A stretch of 37,308 nucleotides of DNA, taken from positions 1-37,308 of the IMG/VR virus record IMGVR_UViG_3300019763_000015; one strand, written 5' to 3'. Below are positions 4,978 through 37,308 of the stretch, in pieces. Numbering within the stretch: position 1 is the stretch's first letter; each line of letters begins with the position of its first letter. The position numbers and the translations under genes are program-made. A model generated the notes under the pieces. That model worked only from the letters and a program-made list of their open reading frames with translations, did no database searches and was not told the DNA's origin. The DNA is from a virus.

Positions 4978-7900
4978 TTAAAACAGCGAAAGAGCTGAAT
5001 CAATGATAAGCGATTCGTCTGCACTTTCCACTATGGAACTTACTGGATCTCCAAGGTTGCTGAAAAGACTTTTCGTTACCCCAGGAATTGAATTGATGAT
5101 GTTGTCCAAACCAAGATGCACAGAAAACATGAAGGCCATAAACACATCATAGGGTTTATCAATCACACTTTCAGCGATGACCTTCAGAACCCGGGAACCA
5201 TACTTGGTGAACCAAAGGAGACCAATAGTATTCCCATACTCGATCATCCTGTGGGTAGGTACGCTGAAGTTGATGAATTCATCCGACACCGCGGCTACTG
5301 CCTCGCTGTTGGGCATGCCCCCTTCCAGGTAGTGGTTGTACAGAACATGCCGGCCGATGAAGTCGGTCATCTTGACCGCGTTGTTCAGGACCTTATAGGC
5401 CTGGGTATCCTCGGTGAGCAGTACCACCTTACCCACCTTCTGGACAGTCTCCGGGAGCTTCCCGGTCAGGGTGGTCATCTTCTTTTCAAAGTCCGTGGGG
5501 AAGTTCTCCCCGGAGGTTACCGTTTCCACATCATCCACCAGTGAGGGCATGAGGCCCAACTCAATGGAGCGGGTGGTGGGGTTATCTTTCAGAGCTGTCT
5601 GCAGCCGAGCAATCTGGCTGTCCAGGTTCTTCAGCTGAGCAGGTGTGTGCTTGCCCCGGGCAACAATGTCTCTGCGGAGTTTCAGCTGCCCAAGCCTCTT
5701 GCTGTCTGCCTGGTACTTGTTGCCCATGGCAATGGCTTCCCAGCCAAGTTTGAGGATCTTGGATACAGGCACTCCTCGTGATTTGAGGTATATCATGTTG
5801 CTGCCCAAGTTGCCCAGTGTAACATAGAGGGACTTCACGATGATGTTGTTCTTGGCATACTTGGTCATCTCCGTGAAGAGAGCCTCTACTGTTGCCATCC
5901 GCTGAGCTGCTTTGTCTTTGAAGAACATCTGGGCCACTGCCACCACCATCTTCTCCAGCTGAGCTCTTTCTTTTGGTTCACGCGTGAAGGCATCTACGAT
6001 GGAATATTGCCGGTACCCAAAGGCCAGGTCCACCACATCCTTGGAAACCATCATGCTATTGGAACCCCAAACCCTCTTGACCTCCTTCCGGGCTGACTCA
6101 GGCAGCATGTAGTAGATCTCCCTCAATCGGGAGTCTGTGGAGTTGGGGGAGATCTCCACATAACCTTTCGGATTGGATTGACCCTCTGTGGACCACATGG
6201 CCTCCAGGCCTTGGATCAACTCCTTGTTGATGATAGGGCTTCTCACCTTATCGACTACCTGCCCAGCCATGGCCCCAAGGATCTTGTCAAAGGCAGTGAC
6301 CTGCTCCATGAAGGAGTCCTTGGTGGTTTCAGCCATCATGTACCGGTACCCGATCACGTTGCCAATGTTGTCCACTTTGGGCACCATGAAGTTGCCCGGC
6401 TTGAGGTCAGGAGTGTAAGCCGGATCCATCATGGCATCAATGGTCTTTTGTTTGGCTTCAACCAGGGTCTTATTATTCTCTATTCCCTCCTGTGTTGTAA
6501 TATCCATTTGGCGGGCAATACGAGCTGAATCTGTGCCCTTTGCCCTGTTGTTGGTGTAAGAGGCTATAGTGGACATCAAGTCGTTAACACGGCCTGTTTT
6601 GGACGTGTATACGTAGAACTTGGTGGCAATGGTGGGATCATCATTATCCCGGGCCATAGCCTTGGGCACAATGGTGTAACCCTCCCGGGCAAGGATCTCT
6701 CGATCATCCCAAGTACCATATCGAAAACCAATCCTGGGGTTCAGGATCTGCTTGGTGTAGCCCTTGATGAATTTGTGCTTATTGCCACCAAAGGCTTGTG
6801 CCAGGGACTCATCCTTCAGCACCTCATGCATTCGAAGTAATCCGTTGACTCCTTCAGGGTCCTGCACCAGCATCTCATGAAATGCGTTCCTATAGTCCTG
6901 AGCAGTGTAACCAAGTGCGTAGAGAGACGCAAGCTGGTCAATGAGGCCATCGGCCTTCTCGACTTGCGTACTATCCAAGGAACCCGCTTTTTGGGTGTTG
7001 GCAAGGGATGCAATTACTCGGGTGCTTTGAAAGACCACTTCCCCTCGTCGGCCTCGGGCATGGATCATGAAGTGCCCCAGGGCATCTGCCGCCTTACGGT
7101 AGTAGTGCTCATAGGGGGCCAAATCTGCGTCTGCTTTGATCTGATCCAGCACCTTATTCACTTGGGCCTGCAGCTCTGCAGAGTCCTCTAAAACGGCTCG
7201 TAGACCCTCTGAACCAAGTGAGTTAAGCAGTACGCTCAAATCCGCTTTTAAGCCTACCTTGGTGGCTACCGTCTTCTGGTAATCCGTGATGGGTTGGGTA
7301 TTGCCTTCTTCATCTTTCAAGGTGGTAAATAGGTCACTGGCCATGTTGATGTATCGCTCAGTCTCCTGCTCCTTGGCAGAGTCCAAAAACAGCTGCCTAC
7401 GGCCAAGCATGTCGTACAGCCAGGCCAACCTATCTGTCCGGCCCCGGACCTCAGCCAGCAGCGATTTAATGATCCCCTGGTCCAGCTGCCGGTAGGCATA
7501 CTCTGCCTCCCTCATACGCTGCCCGAGCAGGGTGTCACTTTCATGGGCCATGGTCAGGGTGGTCTTCAGGCCGTGCCCTACCTTCAGGATAGGGGTCTTG
7601 GACAGAGCCTTCTTGATGAACATGTTGCAGTACCCGGACCACCTCTGAGATCCCTTACCTAATTGAACCATGGAGTTATACAGAGCACTCTTCTGGTCGG
7701 TATCCCTCTTGGCGATAACCACTGCCAAGTCCCGGAGCTCATCAGCCATGGTCATGCGAGCAGACCCGGCAGTAAGCCGGCGATAGAAGAAATCCATGAT
7801 GGCCTGGCCAATATTGTTCAAGGTCTCTTGGATGTTCTTGCCAATCAGGCCCTGCCATGAATGCTTGGTGTACTCAGTACCGATCAGCTCGATGTCCTTC

Positions 7901-10900
7901 AGAGCATTCATGAAGTTCTTGTTTGTAAGGGCCAGGACCATGAACTCATCCAGGTGGGTAGACCTCCTGTCAGAATCCAGGGTATCAGTATTCCGGAAAA
8001 CATAGTCATACCGTTCCTGAGCTGCTTCCACCTCGTACTGATAGGCCGGATCGGTCATGTCGATGGTGGGGTCATCAAGGAAGTGTTGCGCACCGATTTT
8101 CTTCTCGGCCAGTTTAAACAGCTGCTCCACTTTGGTCTTGTAGAGGCTATTCATACTCAAGCCGGTATGGAGCACACTGTGCAGCAATTCATGTGTGTAG
8201 ACTTCCCCGGTGCTCATCCTCAGTCCTTGGCTTAAGGCCCCGGACACAGGACCAATGACCCGGTTCTGGTTGGTAATGAATACCCGATCTTTCTCCGAAC
8301 CAAGGTGAACAAATGCGCCTTCGGTCTCCAGGTCAGGGTTGTCCTTCAGGTAAAGGTCCATGGGCCGCAGGACATTCTGGACCACATCCCGGAGAACACC
8401 TTTGAGGTGAGTATCATGCTCTGCATCATCCACCACGTCGGAGTTGTTCTTGATATGGTCGTAAACGTCCATAGCATTCATACTGTCCACTTCCTGGCGG
8501 ATAGCATATTCCACCGGATCAACGGAGAGCTTGGCCGGGCCACTCATAAAGACATCACCTTCAGGCAAATCCTCATCGGTGTAATAGTCTTCAACCTCAG
8601 CAACATCCAGATTCTCTTGCACCATAAGAGTACCAATTGCATCGGCCACTTCGTTGGTATTATCCATGGATTCAGTGAGCCTCTTTTCTGCTTCCTCGGT
8701 AATGGTCCGGGGGTTATACTCCTGGCCATTATGCTTGATGGTTTTGGCCTTATTGCCGGTGACATACTGACCACCAGGGTAGCTGTATTGTTCAACGCTT
8801 ACCGTGGCATCCATGATGATGTCTTTGTTGGTTTTGGTGACAACAGCTACTTCTTTCATATCACCCATGATCTGTTTCATGGCTTGCTGGTAGTTGGCCA
8901 CACTGATTGGCTTGGCCTTGCCACCATCAGGTGAAGGCATGGATCGAATCTTCATGACCTTCAGCTGTTCCACCATTGCCTGGTCGATAAAGCCTTGACG
9001 TACCCCAGCAGCTTTCAGAACCTCTTGCTGCTTGGCAAACTCAGCCAGTACCGTCTCTACCCCGGCATGGAGTTCCATACCCATGTCATAGTCTTTCATG
9101 ACATTGAAGAACGTCTCGCAGACATGGGTGGATAAGTCCCTGGCCTGCCCGGCACCGATGGTGAAGCCATCATGGTTGTTCAGGATGGGGAATGCACCCA
9201 TGGTGGTATTGGCGATCATACTGTCCTGGTTATGAATGGTCAGGATGGTACCGGCTACACCCGGGGCATCCAAGCCCTCTTTCTTGTAGGGTGCAGCTTT
9301 CTTGCCTGGCAGGTCATTGTAGGATTGCTTTACTTCTTGGTTCACAACCCCCTTGGCTCGGATACTGTAGATCTTCTCCTTACTCATTTTGGCCAGAGGA
9401 ATCTCACCACCCAGGTAAGTCCTCACCCGAGGGAAGAGACCCTTGAGGCTTGCGTCAATCTCCCTCATTTTACCTACAGTGATAGGTCCCTGCTTAGCTG
9501 CTTCTCTGATCTTGATTTTGCGGATCGTGTTGTAAGCTGCCGCGGCAAGGTTAATGCCCTTGTTCAGGGGCTTGAATGAATCCTGCATTGGGCCATAAAC
9601 CTGGGTGATGGCTTCTTTCAAAGCAGCACCATGGTAGTCAGCCAGGTTGGTCTGGACTGCATTCAACAGGTCCAAAGGCAGCTCGGTGTTGAGGAGTACC
9701 TTGGGATTGACTACACCGTCGGTGACTGCATCTGAACCAAATACATGGACACCAGCCAGGTCCTTGAGGTCCTTGGCGAGAGCCCGGAGGTCAGTCAGTG
9801 CTTTCTCTTGGTTCGCCTCCTGAGCAATGGCTGTGATCTTCTTTTTGATGATCTCTTGCACTGAGTTGTTCAACTCCACCAGCAAAGCAGTTTCACCCAT
9901 TCCATAGACTGTCCTCATGGTGGGATCCTTGGATACCTTCCGGACAGTCTTGCTGATATGCCCGTCTTCATCCCGGAACTCTCCAAGCAGGTGCTTCATA
10001 GCTTCCAGTTGGACATACTCGCCTTGAGCAATCAGCTTCTCTCTGCCGGTGGATGCATTTGCAATGCGATCCATCAGCTCCTTCTCTTTATTCACCAAAG
10101 CCTCTGTCCAGGCAAAGCCTGTGGCTTGGTAGGCATCATGACTCAGCTTCCTTGCCAAGTGTTCAGCCAGACCCGGCTGAGCCTTGGAGAAGGCAAACCC
10201 ACCGTTCTGAAGAGCGGTAAGTGTCTCGGGCATATTGGCTCCGGGACCCATGAGTTGGGTGCGGCCGATGACAACCCCGTTGGATACCCCGTCGATCTCT
10301 GTGGCCAGGTCTGTGGTGAAAGTCTTGTCACCGGCTGCCAAGGCATTCAGGTACCGGGCATACTCCAAGATGGTCTTCACAGAGTGCATACCCATACCGC
10401 CGGCCAAGGCTCCTTCCGTGATCAAGGCCATGTCTTCTTTGTGATCGTCCACCATATCGCGCATGATGTCCGGATGCAGTTCGTTCAAACCCTGGTGGAA
10501 TGCCACCACCCTTTGAGCCGCTGCCACAGCATTGGCCAGTACTGGCTTTGCCAGCTCTGCCCGGGCCTTGGCCAGGGTCTGCTCCATACCACCTTCTTTG
10601 GTTGTCTCGATGTCAAGGCCCAGGGCCACTGCCTCCATGAACTGGTCCTGCACATCAATGTCAGTGATGTCCAGTTCACGTTCCCATTCAGTCAGGTTGA
10701 AAAGGAATCGGTGGGTCTTGTTGCCCTGCATGTTGATGTCCCCAACTTCCCCCATCCTGCCCTGGCGCCAAAACTCTTCAGGCACATAGAACTCTGACTC
10801 AAAGCCTTCAGGTCTGGCCTCTGCCTCTGCAAGCCACTCGTCGATGAATGCATTACCCCGCTCGATACCCGCGTTGATACCTTCAGCAGTTTCGATGTCA

Positions 10901-13900
10901 TCCACGTGGGTAAGCATTGGGTCAACCCAGCCTTGGATCTTTTTGAGGTTCTCCTCCCCCATCATCAGGAAAATGGCCATGGACCGCTTGCTCACTTTAC
11001 GTGGCCTGGCCATATGATTCTTGATATTCTCCATCTGCTTCTCAGAGGCGGTAAAGGAAGTGCCCTTGAGGAGCATGTCACCTTTCGGTGCCACTGCATC
11101 CCAGGAGTAATTCCTCTTGTCCCGCTCCCCGGTGAAGATCTGGGACCATAGACCTTTGGCCTCTTTCTGTGGTTCAGACACCTTCGTGAAAAGCTCCGGG
11201 TCAAACTTGTCGTCGGCAGTGAGCACTTTGTAGAAGGAGATGGTACCCACTCCTTTGATCTCTCGGTAGTCTTTTGCTTTAGGGTCCCGCTTAAAGGTTT
11301 CAGCCATGGCCATGTAGGAAGACAGGTCCGCCTCCTTCTGGCTGGCAATCAAAGCATCAAAGTCTGACTTCAGAACTTTGGTGTGCTCCAAGTACCCCAT
11401 GCTCTCCAAGGTGGCTATGGCCTGCAGACCTAAGGACAGCTCCATCTTGTTTTGGAAATCTGCTTCGGTGTCGTCAGTGACTTTTACCCCAAGCAGCTGG
11501 AAGATCTCCTGACCCAAGGACTCCTGCAGCATGGTGGCTGTGACTCCTATATCTCCCAGCAGATTGTGTGCGAGGAAGTTCAGAGGGTGCTCATCATCCA
11601 AACCCATAATGCTGCGCAGGTCATCATCATAGTTGTGCACCGTCTCACTGGCCCTGGTGCCCAGCCACTTGTAGGCCACAGCCATAATTGTGTTGGTTAC
11701 CGCCGGAGGCATCTTCCCGTTATCATCCAGCAGATACTGGATAGGGTCTTCAAACCTGAAGGCTTTGTTCTTTTTGACTTTGAACTGCTTGGTGAAATGC
11801 CCGTGGAAATCTTTACCAAACTCTTTGATGGAAGAGACCATGGCTGTTGATGCATCGTCAGTGGCAAACTCATCCAGAGCATTGAAGATCTTGTCTGCCT
11901 TGTGGATGACCCCCTTCACACCCTTCTTCGGTGCCAGAGTTTTCTTGGCGTGGTTGTCTGGGTCTGCCTCAGTGGGGGTGGTTACATGAGACTGTAAAGA
12001 GGATACCGTCTCTTCAGCTGCTTGATCGTCTTGCACATCTTCTGTTCTTGCAGCAACCTCTCCTTCGTTCTCTTCTTCACTGACAGGCTCTTGGATAACC
12101 TCCTCTCCAGCAGCCTCAGGTTCTTTTGGTTCCTGAGTGATCTGGTCTTCAGTGACTGATTCATCAGCTGCTTGTGTGATCTGGTCTTTCTGCGCATCGG
12201 TCTTCTCCTCTGTTTTGGTTTCTTCAATTAGGGTATCAACCCCCTCGGCATCCACCGACCGGGTACTGCCCTTCTCATCGACGACAGGGGCCTCCTCCGC
12301 TGGCGCTACGTCAGCCACCTGCGTCTCTTCGGCGGTTGTACCACTCACGGTGTCTGCTGCCGGGGTAGGAGCCATCCAGGAGGTGGCCATGGTGACTGCT
12401 TCCTGAAGAGTCTTTACTTCTGCTTTAACCAGGGAAATGAAATAGGGCGCATGAGGCTTACCATTAGCCTGAACTGCCCCGGGGGCAGTAATACTCTCAA
12501 GCTTAGCTGCGTGCCTGTCAGCGAACGTTTTGAGGCCTTCAAGCTGCTCCTGAGCTACTGCCGTATTGCCGGTCTTTAAGGCAACCCCAATGGCTTGAGT
12601 ATAGGTCTTGGTTCCTTTGAACCCGGGACCACCATCAATGATGTTGGAATGTACCTCTTCAGGACGTTTCCCCTCGCCTCGATCCTGGACCTGTATGAGC
12701 TCTTCTTCAGCCTTCTGGTATGCTTGTACCTGCCGAACCTGATCCTTCGTAGAATCGCTGATTTGGGGGTTCTCAAGGATGGTGTCCAAATCCTGCAGGT
12801 CCTGGCTTCGCCTTGAACCAAATAAAGAAATGATGGAGTCACTGACCGCCTGACTGTCATCACTCTTAAGGGCATCGCGTACTTGGGTCAGAGTCTCATC
12901 GGTATCCACCTCGCCAAGCTGCATGCTCTGCAGGAGTGGCTTAACTGCCTTGATGGTCTTGGTGACTGACTTGGCCTCGGACATGAGAGACTGGAGCTTG
13001 GCATACTCATCTTCGTTGATGGTATCCTTCTTGGCATTCAGCTCATTGGCCTCAGCCAGGATGACCTTCTTCTTCTCAGTGAGGTTGTCGTAGATGGTTT
13101 GAACCTGCTCCTGGTTACGGATCTTCTCCACCGGAGACACATCAGGCTTCTGGTTAATCTTCTGCTTCACCTCAGCTGCCATAATGGGGTTGGACTTTGC
13201 TACAGACTCATCGATCTCACCAGCCTCTACGGCTGTCTCAACAGTCTTTTTGTATCCCTTGGCTGTAGGAGCTTTGGCCATTCGTTGGGCAGCCATTTCA
13301 GATTCGGTCTTGGGACGAAGAGCCTTCTTGGCTGTCTTCTTCCCGTAGGCTGCAGTATGAGCAGGTGCCTGAATAACAGCGCCACCGCCGATAGCACCCA
13401 GGGTTTCTGCCATGAGTTCCCCGGCATCCACCTTACCTTCGGCGAGCAGCTGACCTGCCGCTTCACTGACCGGTTCGGAGACAATCTCTGCCACCACCTT
13501 CTTGCTGCCTTGAGCCAAGTTCCTTAAGGTTTGCTCTGCAGACTGTTCAGCAGTTCGTGCTGTAGCACTACCCATGCGACCAACACCAAAACCTAAACCG
13601 GCATCTACTGCCGCGGTACCCAGAGCTTTACGTTGAGCTTTGGAAGAAGCCTCAGCAATAAATTTTGGATCCTCCAAAACAGTAAGGATGTTGGCCTCAG
13701 TAGGTTCCAGACCTCTTCGATATACTTCCTGGGAAACCTGATCCATAAGGTACCCACCAGCTTCTGTGGAAAAAGATCCAGCAAAAGATCCTACAGCAGA
13801 ACCACCAGTACCTGCAGCAGAACCCGCTGCCATACCAAACATGGACGGAATCATGTTAGCTGAGGATTTAGCAAACAAGTAAGCCACACCCTTCGGGTTG

Positions 13901-14421
13901 TTGAGCACTTCCTTGCCTGTGGCAATGGTTGTGTCCATGGCTGCGGAGAGTTTTTCCGCGAAGGTATCCGCAGACTCCCAAGCCTTGGACTCAGCTGCAA
14001 TATGAGATTCCGCTTCCTTCAACTCCATAGGGGTGAATGCTGCTTGACGCCTGGCTTCAGACCGAGCAATGCGGGAAGCAAGGTCTTCTCCATGCCGGCC
14101 ATGCATGGCATCATCCGCTGAACGGACAGCATCAATGGTATCCAAAGCTCCTTGCCGGGCCATCTCCACCATGTTGCCAAAGAAGGTGTTGGCAGCATTA
14201 TCCTCTTGAGCATGGGTAGCCGGTGCCTTGGGGTACAAAGTATCAAAGACAACTCTGGCCTTCTGCCTGGCTGCTTCACCACCAGTCACATAGTTGGGTG
14301 AGCGGGTAGTTTCTTCCCAGGCTTCTTTGGTATATTGAGTTTCTACTTTCTGTTGGTTCTGAGGGGAGAGGGAAGTGAAATCAGGAGACTTACGGAGTTC
14401 CTGTAATGAGATATCGGGCAT
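4978..14421 (-). CDS. Giant virion RNA polymerase (N4 vRNAP type) with zincin-like domain
   Basis: The 3147-aa protein should be packaged in the head and injected with the DNA to transcribe early genes. Visible parts: a Gly/Ala-rich hydrophobic stretch (about 187-224) suited to membrane insertion; an acidic Glu/Thr linker (about 685-810); and a T7-like RNA polymerase core. Core motifs are WRQGR (1218-1222, the T/DxxGR place) followed by QGN (1232-1234), motif A IDGVSNG (D1377), motif B RKVSKDPTMRTVYG (R1494, K1498, Y1506) and motif C NHDGF (D1751). Their spacing resembles that of N4 vRNAP. The C-terminal part has HELLH (2077-2081) and DEFMVLAL (E2159), a probable zincin metallopeptidase site. 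The start at 14421 has AAGGAG. Length and late-operon position match N4 gp50 (3500 aa). Confidence 0.9.
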   Translation of the reverse strand: MPDISLQELRKSPDFTSLSPQNQQKVETQYTKEAWEETTRSPNYVTGGEAARQKARVVFDTLYPKAPATHAQEDNAANTFFGNMVEMARQGALDTIDAVRSADDAMHGRHGEDLASRIARSEARRQAAFTPMELKEAESHIAAESKAWESADTFAEKLSAAMDTTIATGKEVLNNPKGVAYLFAKSSANMIPSMFGMAAGSAAGTGGSAVGSFAGSFSTEAGGYLMDQVSQEVYRRGLEPTEANILTVLEDPKFIAEASSKAQRKALGTAAVDAGLGFGVGRMGSATARTAEQSAEQTLRNLAQGSKKVVAEIVSEPVSEAAGQLLAEGKVDAGELMAETLGAIGGGAVIQAPAHTAAYGKKTAKKALRPKTESEMAAQRMAKAPTAKGYKKTVETAVEAGEIDESVAKSNPIMAAEVKQKINQKPDVSPVEKIRNQEQVQTIYDNLTEKKKVILAEANELNAKKDTINEDEYAKLQSLMSEAKSVTKTIKAVKPLLQSMQLGEVDTDETLTQVRDALKSDDSQAVSDSIISLFGSRRSQDLQDLDTILENPQISDSTKDQVRQVQAYQKAEEELIQVQDRGEGKRPEEVHSNIIDGGPGFKGTKTYTQAIGVALKTGNTAVAQEQLEGLKTFADRHAAKLESITAPGAVQANGKPHAPYFISLVKAEVKTLQEAVTMATSWMAPTPAADTVSGTTAEETQVADVAPAEEAPVVDEKGSTRSVDAEGVDTLIEETKTEEKTDAQKDQITQAADESVTEDQITQEPKEPEAAGEEVIQEPVSEEENEGEVAARTEDVQDDQAAEETVSSLQSHVTTPTEADPDNHAKKTLAPKKGVKGVIHKADKIFNALDEFATDDASTAMVSSIKEFGKDFHGHFTKQFKVKKNKAFRFEDPIQYLLDDNGKMPPAVTNTIMAVAYKWLGTRASETVHNYDDDLRSIMGLDDEHPLNFLAHNLLGDIGVTATMLQESLGQEIFQLLGVKVTDDTEADFQNKMELSLGLQAIATLESMGYLEHTKVLKSDFDALIASQKEADLSSYMAMAETFKRDPKAKDYREIKGVGTISFYKVLTADDKFDPELFTKVSEPQKEAKGLWSQIFTGERDKRNYSWDAVAPKGDMLLKGTSFTASEKQMENIKNHMARPRKVSKRSMAIFLMMGEENLKKIQGWVDPMLTHVDDIETAEGINAGIERGNAFIDEWLAEAEARPEGFESEFYVPEEFWRQGRMGEVGDINMQGNKTHRFLFNLTEWERELDITDIDVQDQFMEAVALGLDIETTKEGGMEQTLAKARAELAKPVLANAVAAAQRVVAFHQGLNELHPDIMRDMVDDHKEDMALITEGALAGGMGMHSVKTILEYARYLNALAAGDKTFTTDLATEIDGVSNGVVIGRTQLMGPGANMPETLTALQNGGFAFSKAQPGLAEHLARKLSHDAYQATGFAWTEALVNKEKELMDRIANASTGREKLIAQGEYVQLEAMKHLLGEFRDEDGHISKTVRKVSKDPTMRTVYGMGETALLVELNNSVQEIIKKKITAIAQEANQEKALTDLRALAKDLKDLAGVHVFGSDAVTDGVVNPKVLLNTELPLDLLNAVQTNLADYHGAALKEAITQVYGPMQDSFKPLNKGINLAAAAYNTIRKIKIREAAKQGPITVGKMREIDASLKGLFPRVRTYLGGEIPLAKMSKEKIYSIRAKGVVNQEVKQSYNDLPGKKAAPYKKEGLDAPGVAGTILTIHNQDSMIANTTMGAFPILNNHDGFTIGAGQARDLSTHVCETFFNVMKDYDMGMELHAGVETVLAEFAKQQEVLKAAGVRQGFIDQAMVEQLKVMKIRSMPSPDGGKAKPISVANYQQAMKQIMGDMKEVAVVTKTNKDIIMDATVSVEQYSYPGGQYVTGNKAKTIKHNGQEYNPRTITEEAEKRLTESMDNTNEVADAIGTLMVQENLDVAEVEDYYTDEDLPEGDVFMSGPAKLSVDPVEYAIRQEVDSMNAMDVYDHIKNNSDVVDDAEHDTHLKGVLRDVVQNVLRPMDLYLKDNPDLETEGAFVHLGSEKDRVFITNQNRVIGPVSGALSQGLRMSTGEVYTHELLHSVLHTGLSMNSLYKTKVEQLFKLAEKKIGAQHFLDDPTIDMTDPAYQYEVEAAQERYDYVFRNTDTLDSDRRSTHLDEFMVLALTNKNFMNALKDIELIGTEYTKHSWQGLIGKNIQETLNNIGQAIMDFFYRRLTAGSARMTMADELRDLAVVIAKRDTDQKSALYNSMVQLGKGSQRWSGYCNMFIKKALSKTPILKVGHGLKTTLTMAHESDTLLGQRMREAEYAYRQLDQGIIKSLLAEVRGRTDRLAWLYDMLGRRQLFLDSAKEQETERYINMASDLFTTLKDEEGNTQPITDYQKTVATKVGLKADLSVLLNSLGSEGLRAVLEDSAELQAQVNKVLDQIKADADLAPYEHYYRKAADALGHFMIHARGRRGEVVFQSTRVIASLANTQKAGSLDSTQVEKADGLIDQLASLYALGYTAQDYRNAFHEMLVQDPEGVNGLLRMHEVLKDESLAQAFGGNKHKFIKGYTKQILNPRIGFRYGTWDDREILAREGYTIVPKAMARDNDDPTIATKFYVYTSKTGRVNDLMSTIASYTNNRAKGTDSARIARQMDITTQEGIENNKTLVEAKQKTIDAMMDPAYTPDLKPGNFMVPKVDNIGNVIGYRYMMAETTKDSFMEQVTAFDKILGAMAGQVVDKVRSPIINKELIQGLEAMWSTEGQSNPKGYVEISPNSTDSRLREIYYMLPESARKEVKRVWGSNSMMVSKDVVDLAFGYRQYSIVDAFTREPKERAQLEKMVVAVAQMFFKDKAAQRMATVEALFTEMTKYAKNNIIVKSLYVTLGNLGSNMIYLKSRGVPVSKILKLGWEAIAMGNKYQADSKRLGQLKLRRDIVARGKHTPAQLKNLDSQIARLQTALKDNPTTRSIELGLMPSLVDDVETVTSGENFPTDFEKKMTTLTGKLPETVQKVGKVVLLTEDTQAYKVLNNAVKMTDFIGRHVLYNHYLEGGMPNSEAVAAVSDEFINFSVPTHRMIEYGNTIGLLWFTKYGSRVLKVIAESVIDKPYDVFMAFMFSVHLGLDNIINSIPGVTKSLFSNLGDPVSSIVESADESLIIDSALSLF

Positions 14422-32709: not shown

Positions 32710-34374
32710 CTATACCACATAAGAATCCATCGCTGAAACTTCTTCTTCGATTTCTTCCATGTCCCAGATATCATCTTCAGAAGCTTTTGTCATGGGCATC
32801 CCATCATCCGATGGGCGCCACACAACCATGGATGCCAGCATAGAGATGGTATCAATGAAGTCGTCATGCTTGGACTTGAACCCACCCTTAGCCGCCAGGC
32901 CCAATTCATCCATGCATTCCATCATGGGGGCACTGCCACGCAGCTCTTCAGGGAAATAAAATCTCTTGGCTTTGAACCAAGGCAATACCATACTGAAGCG
33001 GAGCATCTTGTTGGTATTCGGTTTGATGCCAGGACGGTTCTGGTTGTTCTCCGAAGCCAGGTTGAAGAAGATGTTCTTGTCCATCATGTCTCGCTCGATG
33101 ATGGATGCAAACCCTTGTTGCTGCCCGGTGACCTCAATACCCACGGACAAGGGATTCCACTTCTGAACCAACCTGAACAGGTCAGCCAGGTTCTTATCCA
33201 TCAGCTGCTTCTTGCAAACACCATCTACCCAGAACCAATAACCCTTGCTGTTCAAGGCCCAGACGGAAATGACAGAGAAGTCGTTGGCATCCTCCTCTGT
33301 GGTGGCAAAGTCAGTGGTAATGTAATAGTTGAATGCTGATCTCCTCTTCATGAGAGAAGTCCGGTTATACCACCGGATATCATCATCCTCTACCAATCTG
33401 TCGTCATCAGACATAATCCTCAGCATAAGCTCCTGGTTGAAGTTCTCGGGAGTGCCCAGAGCCTGGGCTTCATCGTATTCAGCCTTTACATACTCATAGG
33501 GGAAACGATCCTCCCAGGAGCCCCTAAACTCCTCCCTGGTGCACGGATAATGCTGACAGATAGGGTAGACACTAACCCGCCATGCACCTGATTCTACGGC
33601 CTTATAGAGGGGATCTCGGGCGTTGAATGGGGTACCCAGCCATACCATCTTCTGGCGGGTAGGGTGAAGGGCCTTAGAAACGGCCTTATAGATCGTATTT
33701 TCGATCGTTTTGATGACCGTAGGGGATTCTGCATCCGTATCGCTTACGAGGTCGTCAAGGATCGCTACAGAGGGCCTCTGGCCAAGCTCTTTAGCACCCC
33801 TCACTCCCGTTTTGGCCCCATACCCCTTTACTACCAGGATATGACCCTCGTTATTGCGGAATTCAAGGCGAATATCAGTGAATTTACGGCCTGTGGCTAT
33901 CTGGGCCTCAAAGGTATCTAAACCCACAAAACCGGCTCCATCGGTGCCTACAGTGATCCTCTTGTCCGGAATGAGGCTTTTCAGGAAATCACTCTCCCCA
34001 TACCGGTATTCCACGTTTCGGCGGAGGTTCTTTACCCCGTTCTCAATGGAGTCCGTTACATAGAGCAGTAGATTCACGTTCCCAAAGCCAGGAAACTCCC
34101 CAAAGGCCGCGATGAACAGAATCAGGTACTCACCAAAGAGGGTGGTCTTACCGATCCCCCTGTGACAGAGGATCGCACACCTCCTGTCCTTGTTGAATAC
34201 CCTATCCATCATCTTCAGGTGGACCAGGGGAGTCTCGTTCTCCTCGGTGCCGGCATTGACTTGCTTGATGAACCAAACAAATTTAAGAGCCCACTCCGCC
34301 GGCACATACCCTACGAAGTCGTAATCAGTTTCCCTCAGCCACTGCTCGACTGGTTGCTTTTTGTAAAGAGACAT
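32710..34374 (-). CDS. Terminase large subunit (ATPase and nuclease)
   Basis: The 554-aa packaging motor has a Walker A motif HRGIGKTT (71-78), a Walker B VAILDD (203-208) with catalytic acid following, and a coupling motif WLGTPF (245-250). The RNase H-like nuclease has acidic residues D355 (TTDFATTEEDANDFSVI), E414 (VGIEVTG) and the KHDDFID cluster (502-508). It cuts concatemers and pumps DNA through the portal. Its start overlaps the stop of the small-subunit gene. Length and motifs are complete, so it looks functional. Confidence 0.93.
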   Translation of the reverse strand: MSLYKKQPVEQWLRETDYDFVGYVPAEWALKFVWFIKQVNAGTEENETPLVHLKMMDRVFNKDRRCAILCHRGIGKTTLFGEYLILFIAAFGEFPGFGNVNLLLYVTDSIENGVKNLRRNVEYRYGESDFLKSLIPDKRITVGTDGAGFVGLDTFEAQIATGRKFTDIRLEFRNNEGHILVVKGYGAKTGVRGAKELGQRPSVAILDDLVSDTDAESPTVIKTIENTIYKAVSKALHPTRQKMVWLGTPFNARDPLYKAVESGAWRVSVYPICQHYPCTREEFRGSWEDRFPYEYVKAEYDEAQALGTPENFNQELMLRIMSDDDRLVEDDDIRWYNRTSLMKRRSAFNYYITTDFATTEEDANDFSVISVWALNSKGYWFWVDGVCKKQLMDKNLADLFRLVQKWNPLSVGIEVTGQQQGFASIIERDMMDKNIFFNLASENNQNRPGIKPNTNKMLRFSMVLPWFKAKRFYFPEELRGSAPMMECMDELGLAAKGGFKSKHDDFIDTISMLASMVVWRPSDDGMPMTKASEDDIWDMEEIEEEVSAMDSYVV

Positions 34375-35069
34375 TACACATCAATCACCTCTCCCCGGTC
34401 CGGGACAATGGATACGTTGGTGAGGGCCTTCACATCACCACCCTGTTTCATATATTCCAACTGCGTCTTGGCCATCTGATCCATCACTATGCGGAAATCC
34501 TCATGGATGGTCGGAGCAGAGGCACCCACATCCAGCTCAATCTTCTTGGTCTCCGGCGCCTTCAGGTGGGTGAGCAAACTGTTGGCAGCACTCATCCGCA
34601 CCATGGGTGATACCTTGGTATCCATCATGATTGCCCGCTGGGTGTTGATAGCTTCCTGAAACACATCTTGGTTCAAAATGTGGGTGGGGATCATGGCCTG
34701 CTCCATGATCAAGACCACCAACTTGGATTTGTTGTAGGCTGTGTGGTAGCTGGATTGATCCTTCGAAGAAACACCCTGCTCATCCCACTTCTTCTTCTTC
34801 TCTGGAAAGGTCCGGTTGAAGGCATCCCGGTTGGTCATCCCCATAAACTTGTACCCCGCGTAACGCACGGCACTCAAATACTTGGAGATGGGGAATTTCC
34901 CCTGGGTCAGGACATTGGCAAAGCCAAGCAGGTTGTCCCGGTAATGCTCCCAGTCCTCTTCCTGGGTTAAAACGTTGTTAATACCCATCATCAAAATGGG
35001 GTTGACTGCCTTCCTCATACTGGAGGGCAAGACGGCCTTGAACTCATCTTCCGTCAATGCAGGTACCAT
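34374..35069 (-). CDS. Terminase small subunit candidate
   Basis: The 231-aa, mostly helical protein lies immediately upstream of the large terminase and overlaps its start by one base. Residues about 130-180 (ILNQDVFQEAINTQRAIMMDTKVSPMVRMSAANSLLTHLKAPE) resemble the helical oligomerisation part of small terminases that precedes DNA delivery. N4-like phages have a protein of about this size in this place. Position is the strongest support. The start at 35069 has AGGAG. Confidence 0.65.
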   Translation of the reverse strand: MVPALTEDEFKAVLPSSMRKAVNPILMMGINNVLTQEEDWEHYRDNLLGFANVLTQGKFPISKYLSAVRYAGYKFMGMTNRDAFNRTFPEKKKKWDEQGVSSKDQSSYHTAYNKSKLVVLIMEQAMIPTHILNQDVFQEAINTQRAIMMDTKVSPMVRMSAANSLLTHLKAPETKKIELDVGASAPTIHEDFRIVMDQMAKTQLEYMKQGGDVKALTNVSIVPDRGEVIDV

Positions 35070-35077
35070 GACTTCTC

Positions 35078-35449
35078 CTACTCTTTTTCAGCACAAACCA
35101 GATAGGGTTTTTCATTAATGCGAACTACCTTCAACTGAGAGCATACAACACCTTCCAGAATCCGGGGGATAGCTTCATCCTCGATAGGAAAAAGTTTGCC
35201 CGGGTTCTCGAAGGCTTTCACGCAGGTGGCTTCCAGGTGCACCCAGGGTTGTACTTCCTTCTCCGGCAGACGAAGGGTAGCTGCATAGAACTCCCCATTG
35301 TCATCCTGCACGATCAGTTCCCCGATGTGTAAGTCCACCACCCCCTGGGCAGTGATCACGTTGGGGCAGTTGCGGGTGTTGTCATAATTTGAACCAAGAA
35401 AAGAGAGGCAATCCTGGTTGTTGTGGCCGGTGAACTGAATACACTTCAT
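35078..35449 (-). CDS. Small phage protein of unknown function (123 aa)
   Basis: I place the start at ATG 35449 (MKCIQFTGHNNQD), seven bases after AAGGAG, although the frame is open to 35524. The beginning MKCIQFTGHN, then GVVDLHIGELIVQDDNGEFYAA, resembles a small family common in phages (an E-I-x-F-T-G start and a GDxIxxxxGE strand pair). The function of that family is not known to me. The TAG lies in the spacer before the small terminase gene. Confidence 0.6.
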   Translation of the reverse strand: MKCIQFTGHNNQDCLSFLGSNYDNTRNCPNVITAQGVVDLHIGELIVQDDNGEFYAATLRLPEKEVQPWVHLEATCVKAFENPGKLFPIEDEAIPRILEGVVCSQLKVVRINEKPYLVCAEKE

Positions 35450-35451
35450 GT

Positions 35452-36084
35452 TTAATCTCCTTGGGGGTAGAGGGCTACCTGCTTGAGGGTATTCATAACG
35501 TCCTGAGGGGTGTGGCCATCCCACTTATTGGCCGTCTCTCTGATCGGGCACTTGAACAGGTTCCAATCCTTCATCTCATAGTGGTTGGACACCTGCCCGG
35601 AGGGGGTCTGAGCCATAACAATAAACCAGCCTCCACCGAAGCACTCTTCACCATCCGAATGCCGAGCAGACTTGTGCACATCCCACTTGCCCTGCTTGGC
35701 CCACTCATTGAACAGGCAGGCGTTATAGAGCTTCCGGAACTCATAGAGCTCATCGAAGGTGTGGTAGCCGTCAGAAGTACCCCCAGGCATGCCACTGGCC
35801 TGGATAGCATCAAGGACCGTCTTAACCGTCATCCGATTATAGTCCTTCACGTTCTCGGGAAGCTCTCCATAGGGGTACATGTCGGGGTGACATTTATCAC
35901 AGTATTTATGGAACTTCGGGAATGGAGCATCAATACCACCATATTTAGGCTTAACGCTCAGAATATTGCGGTCCGAACAAGCTAAAGAGCTATCGCATTT
36001 AACAGGGGCATGAAATCCCTGCTCCTTCTTCTCTTCCCACCATGCGTTATGCACATGTGCTGCTAACGACTCAATGTCACTCAC
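35452..36084 (-). CDS. RyR-domain plus WDGH-domain protein
   Basis: The start is GTG 36084, five bases after AAAGGAGGG; the open frame extends to 36183 without a better site. Residues about 5-95 match the RyR domain: LAAHVHNAWWEEKKEQGF, then HPDMYPYGELPENVKDYNRMT. C30, C36, C62 and C65 lie between its halves and could hold zinc. Residues about 105-205 are a phage domain with TSDGYHTFDELYEFR, SARHSDGEE, GGGWFIVM and the signature WDGHTPQDV (188-196). RyR domains in prokaryotic and phage proteins have been proposed to bind nucleotide ligands. The gene is next but one to the Tad2-like gene, so a counter-defence role is possible. Domain calls fairly sure; function inferred. Confidence 0.7.
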   Translation of the reverse strand: MSDIESLAAHVHNAWWEEKKEQGFHAPVKCDSSLACSDRNILSVKPKYGGIDAPFPKFHKYCDKCHPDMYPYGELPENVKDYNRMTVKTVLDAIQASGMPGGTSDGYHTFDELYEFRKLYNACLFNEWAKQGKWDVHKSARHSDGEECFGGGWFIVMAQTPSGQVSNHYEMKDWNLFKCPIRETANKWDGHTPQDVMNTLKQVALYPQGD

Positions 36085-36386
36085 GCTTTCCCTCCTTTGT
36101 TGAACCAAATGAAAAAATCTCCCATAGGGGTCTTCTCGAACACCAACTCTTTCAGTCCCAAAGATCTCCCCAGGTGAGTGCAAATGCCGGCCAGGTGGGA
36201 ATGACCCCGGAGGTCATCCCAGTGATCTTTGAGTTGCACCCTCTGCCCGGGGTGCTCCAAAGCCTCAAGCACATACTTCAGGGCCAGCTTCTTGGTCCGG
36301 CCGGTAGCCCGCTGCCCATCGTCATCGTCTTCCCCATACATCGCATAGGGATCCTTGTGCATATTGGCCATGGTATCAATCAGCAC
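36081..36386 (-). CDS. Hypothetical protein (101 aa)
   Basis: The start is GTG 36386 with GGAGG six bases upstream, overlapping the Tad2-like gene by 11 bases and the RyR gene by four, so the three form a coupled set. The N-terminus is acidic (GEDDDDGQ); the rest has a helix (KKLALKYVLEALEHPG) and a compact part with WDDLRGHSHLAGICTHLG and FFIWFNKGG. I recognise no family. Coupling to its neighbours suggests a shared purpose. Confidence 0.55.
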   Translation of the reverse strand: MLIDTMANMHKDPYAMYGEDDDDGQRATGRTKKLALKYVLEALEHPGQRVQLKDHWDDLRGHSHLAGICTHLGRSLGLKELVFEKTPMGDFFIWFNKGGKA

Positions 36387-36738
36387 TGGGTACCTCCGTC
36401 AGCACAACCCAGTCATCAGCCAGGGCATCAGATCCAGAGGGCGCCCAAGTGGCCACATCACCCTGTGCAGTCTTCAGGGCCAGGTAGGGACGGTAGGGTA
36501 CCAGGGTTTCACCGAAGTGTTGCTTGGCTACCCCAGTCTGTGCCGGATAGGCTCCAGCAGGAACCAAATAAACAAACATGCCTTTACCGTTCCAACCCTT
36601 CCGGGTAATGGCAAAGCCTTTCTTCACAGCCATCATGGCAAAGCCGAAAGGAGTGCAACCTTCTTCATCAACAGGCAGATAAAGACAATCGCCGCTTTTA
36701 CAAATACGCATGAAGCTTAATTTCTTGGGAGTGCTCAT
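36376..36738 (-). CDS. Tad2-like (DUF2829) Thoeris anti-defence protein candidate
   Basis: The 120-aa protein matches the DUF2829 plan: FGFAMMAVKKGFAITRKGWNGKGMF (split 31-55), the strand YLVP (57-60), PYLALKT (84-90), W98 and SGSDALADDW (101-110). Tad2 proteins of this family form oligomers that bind and sequester the cyclic ADP-ribose-type signal made by Thoeris TIR enzymes, stopping the abortive response. An N-terminal extension (1-27) with SGDCLYLPVDEEGCTP is added. It is the first gene after the non-coding region, so it is read first in the late unit. Family likely; activity not shown. Confidence 0.8.
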   Translation of the reverse strand: MSTPKKLSFMRICKSGDCLYLPVDEEGCTPFGFAMMAVKKGFAITRKGWNGKGMFVYLVPAGAYPAQTGVAKQHFGETLVPYRPYLALKTAQGDVATWAPSGSDALADDWVVLTEVPSAD

Positions 36739-36871
36739 TTGATTTTCCTTTTCTGTTTACGGTTACCCTTCATCGAGCATTACAGCACTGCGCCTCGTTC
36801 ATTCATCGCTACGCTGCGCTTCGCTCTTCATTCACTCAGCTTGCACTTACATGCTCTCTTCAGGTATAGGT

Positions 36872-36900
36872 ACTGTATAGGTTAGGTTTTATTTATGCAA
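36872..36900 (-). promoter_or_regulatory. Weak candidate late promoter
   Basis: On the minus strand TTGCAT (36895-36900) and TACAGT (36872-36877) are 17 bases apart, ahead of the Tad2-like gene. The -10-like box is identical to the one at 4921-4926. TATAGGT is repeated around it on the plus strand. The match to sigma70 is imperfect, and a phage polymerase promoter is also possible. Confidence 0.3.
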
Positions 36901-37126
36901 TACATTATTTAGGGGATAGGTGAAAGGAAAGGGGTTATTCTACTATGTTATATTATATAGTCTCCCCTCATTTATTTCCTTTTTGTTTTCGACATCTGTT
37001 TTTTACATGAGTTTTTTCACCCTGTCAAATTCATAGTTTTGAACATCTTTTCATTATCCATCAAAAATTTTGATCGAAAAAAATAGAGGGGTCTGAAAAA
37101 TAATTTTTGAGGGAAAATGGATTGGG

Positions 37127-37290
37127 TTATCGAAGTAGTGTGGAAAGAGAAATCCTATTACAGAAAAAATTTACCATACTTATCGAAGTAGCACCAATCC
37201 AAAATCTAATTGGTAAAAAATATGTGATACTTATCGGTGTAGTGATTTTTCCATAAACAAAAAATAATGTGGTACTTATCAAAGTAGTAC
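37127..37290. repeat. Four spaced repeats, candidate vRNAP early promoters
   Basis: The consensus TTATCGAAGTAGTG occurs at 37127-37140, 37180-37194 (TTATCGAAGTAGCAC), 37231-37244 (TTATCGGTGTAGTG) and 37276-37290 (TTATCAAAGTAGTAC), spaced 53, 51 and 45 bases. The last three are preceded by an A-run and a TAC. Copies 2 and 4 form TACTT/AAGTA hairpins with a 4-base loop; copies 1 and 3 pair poorly. Position beyond the late operon matches that of N4 vRNAP hairpin promoters. Origin iterons are the main alternative. Confidence 0.7.
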
Positions 37291-37308
37291 TACTCAGCGA
37301 ACAACCCC

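Follow-up and report, generated by a model that had tools for sequence, protein, structure and literature searches.

A Tad2-like gene coupled to a RyR-WDGH gene just before the terminase genes in a Schitoviridae-like phage: a candidate anti-signalling cassette

Two phage protein families provide the closest described systems for the locus analysed here. Among Tad2 proteins, SPO1 Tad2 binds gcADPR, and ModTad2 binds His-ADPR, so blocking type II Thoeris (PMC13299392). Phage RyR proteins were described in May 2026 (bioRxiv): RyDEP of phage DyoEdafos cleaves 2'cADPR and 3'cADPR, of eight further phage RyR proteins, six bind 2'/3'cADPR without cleavage and two of them rescue phages from Thoeris (PMC13232231). 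The sensing of nucleotides by RyR domains, which an earlier note on this DNA had raised as a proposal, is thus a published fact for phage RyR proteins and no longer new. The main text of the RyDEP paper makes no mention of Tad2, Acb2 or WDGH (PMC13232231).

The DNA under study, referred to below as the window, is the whole 37,308-nt stretch of IMG/VR virus record IMGVR_UViG_3300019763_000015 (positions 1 to 37,308). Judged by its gene content, its source is a Schitoviridae-like (N4-like) phage, because it encodes a 3,147-aa virion RNA polymerase of the N4 type (4978-14421, minus strand; phrog_2206, E 0) and a terminase large subunit (TerL) with 59% identity to that of Schitoviridae. The window probably represents half of a ~75 kb genome, since virion genes are present in its ORF list and no replication genes were seen there. 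An esterase/lipase-like protein (phrog_21992) is encoded at 1376-2152 on the plus strand, close to a protein with a dATP/dGTP pyrophosphohydrolase domain (520-1089). The features relevant to the locus are as follows.

36739-37308, no strand: AT-rich leader upstream of the block, 35% GC, with four TTATCGAAGTAG-like repeats
36376-36738, minus strand: Tad2-like protein, 120 aa, Tad2 domain at residues 31-112 (PF11195, E 2.1e-22)
36081-36386, minus strand: 101-aa protein, distant relative of LUZ19 gp20 (phrog_5437, E 0.017)
35452-36084, minus strand: RyR-WDGH protein, 210 aa, RyR at about residues 1-99 and WDGH at 102-202 (PF02026 and PF25311, both above cut-offs)
35078-35449, minus strand: 123-aa protein, 2 bp after the RyR-WDGH gene (phrog_1810, E 0.034; phrog_419, E 0.23)
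34374-35069, minus strand: gene in the position of the terminase small subunit (phrog_2109, E 4.9e-75; terminase small subunit phrog_7344 only at E 0.009)
32710-34374, minus strand: TerL (phrog_38, E 1e-92)

Four coupled minus-strand genes, directly ahead of the terminase genes, make up the block. The Tad2-like and 101-aa genes overlap by 11 bp and the 101-aa and RyR-WDGH genes by 4 bp, and ribosome-binding sites precede the GTG starts of the 101-aa and RyR-WDGH genes (for the latter, aaaggagg lies just upstream of the start at 36084, and the stop is at 35452). The earlier note had described three overlapping genes at the head of the late unit. These genes are real and coupled, the block extends to a fourth gene because 35078-35449 follows at 2 bp with the terminase genes a further 8 bp on, and the gene in the terminase-small-subunit position (TerS below), TerL and the virion genes do come after it. 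A homologue of this TerS-position gene precedes TerL in all TerL relatives, and the slot ahead of it varies across these relatives, holding unrelated small genes. In one relative (L019, 991-1722), a gene resembling, by eye, a nucleoside 2-deoxyribosyltransferase occupies the slot before the terminase genes. On the other side of the block, the four TTATCGAAGTAG-like copies of the leader lie at 37127-37287 with spacings of 53, 51 and 45 bp and are possible regulatory or replication elements; no promoter match was found on the minus strand of the leader.

The assignment of the first gene to the DUF2829/Tad2 family is secure: the protein matches PF11195 at 79.9 bits, against a curated Pfam cut-off of 25, and its closest solved proteins are the ModTad2 chains 9eib and 8v3e (E 4.1e-29), with 59% identity to ModTad2 over 83 positions and ~37% to SPO1 Tad2. 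Like other members of the family, it keeps the GWNGKGMF and W.PS.SD.LA.DW motifs; unlike known Tad2 proteins, it has ~30 additional N-terminal residues, and its gene is coupled to RyR-WDGH rather than to the usual Gp49 gene. By sequence, both the gene and its place are of an already known kind, as Tad2 genes occupy the same pre-terminase slot in the Schitoviridae Stenotrophomonas phage Pokken and Alcaligenes phage QDWS595, and in the metagenomic TerL relatives L020, L063 and L161. The Tad2 family of 36376-36738 is also matched by PDB entries labelled AcrIIA7 or inhibitor of type II CRISPR-Cas. An old annotation describes DUF2829 as a type I toxin.

The third gene was called RyR-WDGH in the earlier note, and the two Pfam matches bear this out. 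The RyR domain matches PF02026 at E 1.6e-7 (31.9 bits, cut-off 27.4). An insertion of ~28 residues divides the match into two stretches, and within this insertion lie C30, C36, C62 and C65 (CX5C...CX2C), the four-Cys site that had been suspected. With the RyDEP sequence taken from L016 (9664-10080), where H75, W78, H100 and D117 were confirmed, the ligand residues H75/W78/H100 correspond in matching motif positions to H12/W15/H66 of the window RyR, which thus resembles RyDEP and the phage RyR sponges at the published ligand positions. It departs from RyDEP in its four-Cys insertion, its fusion to WDGH and N83, which stands in place of the catalytic D117; the Asp is present in 80 of 80 phage RyR proteins in a separate scan, and human RyR3 carries Asn, as does the window protein. 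A GF also replaces the otherwise invariant GW, the AF2 model of the RyR half is poor (pLDDT mostly below 50), and no relative was confirmed in genome contigs with the window RyR domain alone as query. Because N83 replaces Asp117, we do not class the window RyR as a RyDEP-type glycosidase; with H, W and H kept, Asn for the catalytic Asp and the four-Cys insertion, it is likelier a binder than an enzyme.

The two remaining genes lend no support to a signalling module. The 101-aa protein matched no Pfam or NCBIfam family, and none of its relatives were confirmed in viral contigs; it shares a TGRT..AL..A..PG..DH pattern with LUZ19 gp20-type proteins and has a relative in Drael01 (E 5e-4). A family tie to LUZ19 gp20 is thus indicated, from which neither a function nor a signalling link follows. 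Its membership of a signalling set, as the earlier note had it, finds no support, the LUZ19 gp20 kin (phrog_5437) adjoining DNA polymerase, ligase or exonuclease genes and having no signalling link. For the 123-aa protein, a local HMM gave E 1e-4 for one target, and the two families it matches, phrog_1810 and phrog_419, are also matched by the PGDYG-WDGH protein of L010; a weak likeness to PGDYG, a domain fused to WDGH elsewhere, is suggested only.

We consider it fairly probable that the block is an anti-signalling cassette in the pre-terminase slot of a Schitoviridae-like phage, comprising a Tad2-like sponge, a non-cleaving RyR binder and a further WDGH module. The Tad2-like protein, whose closest relative of solved structure is the His-ADPR binder ModTad2, would most likely sequester a Thoeris signal of the ADP-ribose type, and the RyR part would most likely hold an adenine-containing ADPR-type signal without cleaving it. 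The WDGH part may add another module that binds or processes defence signals of this class, a guess from association. Since the capsid protein triggers ThsB of Thoeris (PMC12043709), sponges co-transcribed with virion genes would be available at the time of need, as capsid protein appears; this timing is inferred. Two features of the block count against the cassette: the misfit of the 101-aa gene, and the divergence of the RyR domain, with its low score, Asn for Asp, GF for GW and poor model.

The families of the block recur together in other phages. In L161, a distant relative with TerL 54% and TerS 42% identical to those of the window, obtained through the WDGH query only, a Tad2 gene is followed by a WDGH gene that adjoins or overlaps it, and TerS and TerL come next, in a window-like order. 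A single protein of csAssE-Sib carries WDGH followed by Tad2, and L010 has consecutive Tad2, PGDYG-WDGH and Acb2-like genes. In L194 (1405-4565), WDGH, an 85-aa gene, an Acb2-like gene and RyR are flanked by phage GroEL and GroES-like genes; a GroES-like gene also adjoins the sponge cluster of L010. The RyR and Acb2 families also occur together: an Acb2 gene lies within 234 bp of RyR at nine of the 80 RyR loci scanned, L242 and L249 encode RyR-Acb2 fusions with both Pfam domains above cut-off, and L179 and L182 encode a RyR-Acb2-like fusion near WDGH. In L273, a Tad2 gene lies 112 bp from RyR. The fusions or Acb2-like fusions of L242, L249, L259, L179 and L182 place anti-Thoeris and anti-CBASS domains in one protein, and no description of RyR-Acb2 fusions was found in the literature. 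The Acb2-like calls come from a local profile; this profile detects L041 (E 1e-17), a protein matching PF24729 (Acb2) at 8.6e-12; the Acb2-like proteins of L010, L194, L179 and L008 are below the Pfam cut-off of PF24729. A PDB profile search with the Acb2-like alignment matched mostly designed proteins, which were judged artefacts. Co-occurrence in related genomes, the absence of which the earlier note had set as refuting, was therefore found, as coupled genes or fusions and in related and unrelated phages alike.

Such recurrence might also arise if Tad2, RyR, WDGH, PGDYG, Gp49 and YxSWSP were freely recombining mobile modules, in which case Tad2 would be a Thoeris sponge, and RyR-WDGH and the others passengers. 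We regard this shared-cargo explanation as rather unlikely, although it is the main rival. It draws on the variable slot ahead of TerS and on the many fusion partners of WDGH (PGDYG, DUF551, DUF5522 and many unique N-termini). The YxSWSP domain and Gp49 (PF13876) precede Tad2 domains and RyR domains in different phages, and PHROG matches confirm YxSWSP as a shared Tad2/RyR partner; these common N-terminal partners would fit a common toolbox, and free module recombination too. PHROG names give no function for Tad2, RyR or WDGH proteins. The distances between genes speak against mere cargo. With near defined as within 1 kb of RyR, sponge or WDGH genes at the 80 RyR loci number 11 near and none farther (p 1.4e-6, identical domains merged), a ratio of 7:0 at 90% clusters (p 1.6e-4) and 6:0 at 80% (p 4e-4); one of these loci, L215, is not independent, because its contig is that of L194, the locus from which the profile was seeded. 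Control accessory domains show no clustering near RyR (6 near, 9 far). In favour of shared cargo, Gp49, a domain with no known signalling link, also adjoins RyR at some loci (6 near, 9 far). At WDGH loci, nine sponge genes fall within 1.5 kb and one beyond (p 8e-4 at 90% clusters), weakening to 5:1 with p 0.026 at 80% clustering. The 870 kb surveyed around Tad2 genes held one Acb2 only, and no separate RyR or WDGH gene. Proximity of sponge families to RyR and WDGH genes is thus commoner than expected. The association is strong between RyR and Acb2 and moderate for WDGH, while for Tad2 it depends on a few clear cases. That Tad2, Acb2 and RyR recur with WDGH in differing orders, and as fusions, also argues for the cassette over shared cargo. 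Weighing against the cassette, most WDGH genes have no sponge neighbour, and the RyR-WDGH architecture was seen in the window only.

In the WDGH domain itself, residues 102-202 match PF25311 at E 1.9e-38 (131.1 bits, cut-off 27) with the conserved residues present, 157 relatives were obtained from one viral-contig scan, and the high-confidence model (pLDDT 95) begins with a helix, continues with three main strands and closes with a second helix. No convincing solved match to this fold was found, Foldseek giving E 0.19 or worse and VIA giving Z values no higher than 4.0 for SPT16, ribosomal and SRP9/14-type chains, with Acb4 not among the matches; set against the dsRBD-like fold (Acb4), the order is helix-strand-strand-strand-helix and the best Z is again 4.0 or lower. 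Across 71 diverse sequences, ~24 columns are invariant, many of them polar, and the near-invariant set comprises K, S, H, C, N, H, Y, W, D and H. This conservation exceeds the needs of a passive module and would suit an enzyme that breaks down an ADPR-based signal through its RyR part, its WDGH part or both, with the near-invariant WDGH residues as active site; RyDEP, after all, is a glycosidase (PMC13232231). We nevertheless find such an enzyme improbable: the catalytic Asp is Asn in the window RyR, the WDGH domain has no solved enzyme-fold match, and the other RyR homologues tested are non-cleaving despite high conservation (PMC13232231).

The RyR gene of Pseudomonas phage H66 (L111) lies between virion-protein genes verified by mass spectrometry, so that the particle may contain RyR proteins in some cases, and in this phage and at many loci among L216-L291 RyR is joined to a long C-terminal region; that RyR-WDGH acts in the virion or in packaging, as its pre-terminase position would suggest, is nevertheless very improbable, given that the slot holds unrelated small genes in TerL relatives and that WDGH and RyR also occur in non-structural settings such as DNA polymerase or GroEL/GroES clusters.

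The anti-signalling cassette is therefore the reading that we carry forward, and by association it makes WDGH a candidate new anti-signalling domain. Our broader proposal, put forward tentatively and with less than even confidence, is that WDGH is a new phage domain family whose members bind or degrade nucleotide immune signals, and which phages combine with Tad2, RyR and Acb2 in multi-sponge cassettes and fusions; the window RyR-WDGH would then have two pockets, and perhaps a ligand loop stabilised by zinc, and work beside a Tad2 sponge. The idea of a set that soaks up nucleotide signals, as the earlier note had framed it, stands for the Tad2 and RyR families, both with members of proven anti-Thoeris activity (PMC13299392, PMC13232231), and falls for the 101-aa protein. 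Its extension to CBASS is not supported for the window, in whose ORFs the local profile found no Acb2 gene or domain; related clusters elsewhere do have one. The impression that the combination was undescribed held up in a literature search with most subscription papers outside its scope, which likewise returned no paper naming the WDGH domain.

The block is thus real, coherent and of a known kind, its architecture is new, and it leads to the uncharacterised WDGH domain. Phage sponges have so far been found singly; if they also come in cassettes, the neighbours and fusion partners of known sponges form a shortlist of anti-defence genes, in which WDGH and the RyR-Acb2 fusions are directly testable candidates. 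A non-catalytic RyR with the animal-type Asn would, in addition, bear on the ligand of the RyR repeat domain in ryanodine receptors.

In comparison with known systems, the window RyR is nearer to the bacterial and animal RyR type than to phage RyDEP, and Acb2 (PF24729), which in other phages adjoins RyR and WDGH or is fused to them, is absent. A parallel in gene organisation is the RyDEP-NARP1 operon of DyoEdafos, where an RyR anti-signalling gene likewise sits within a larger anti-defence operon; its partners there are NAD+ synthesis enzymes, whereas in the window they are a Tad2 sponge and WDGH.
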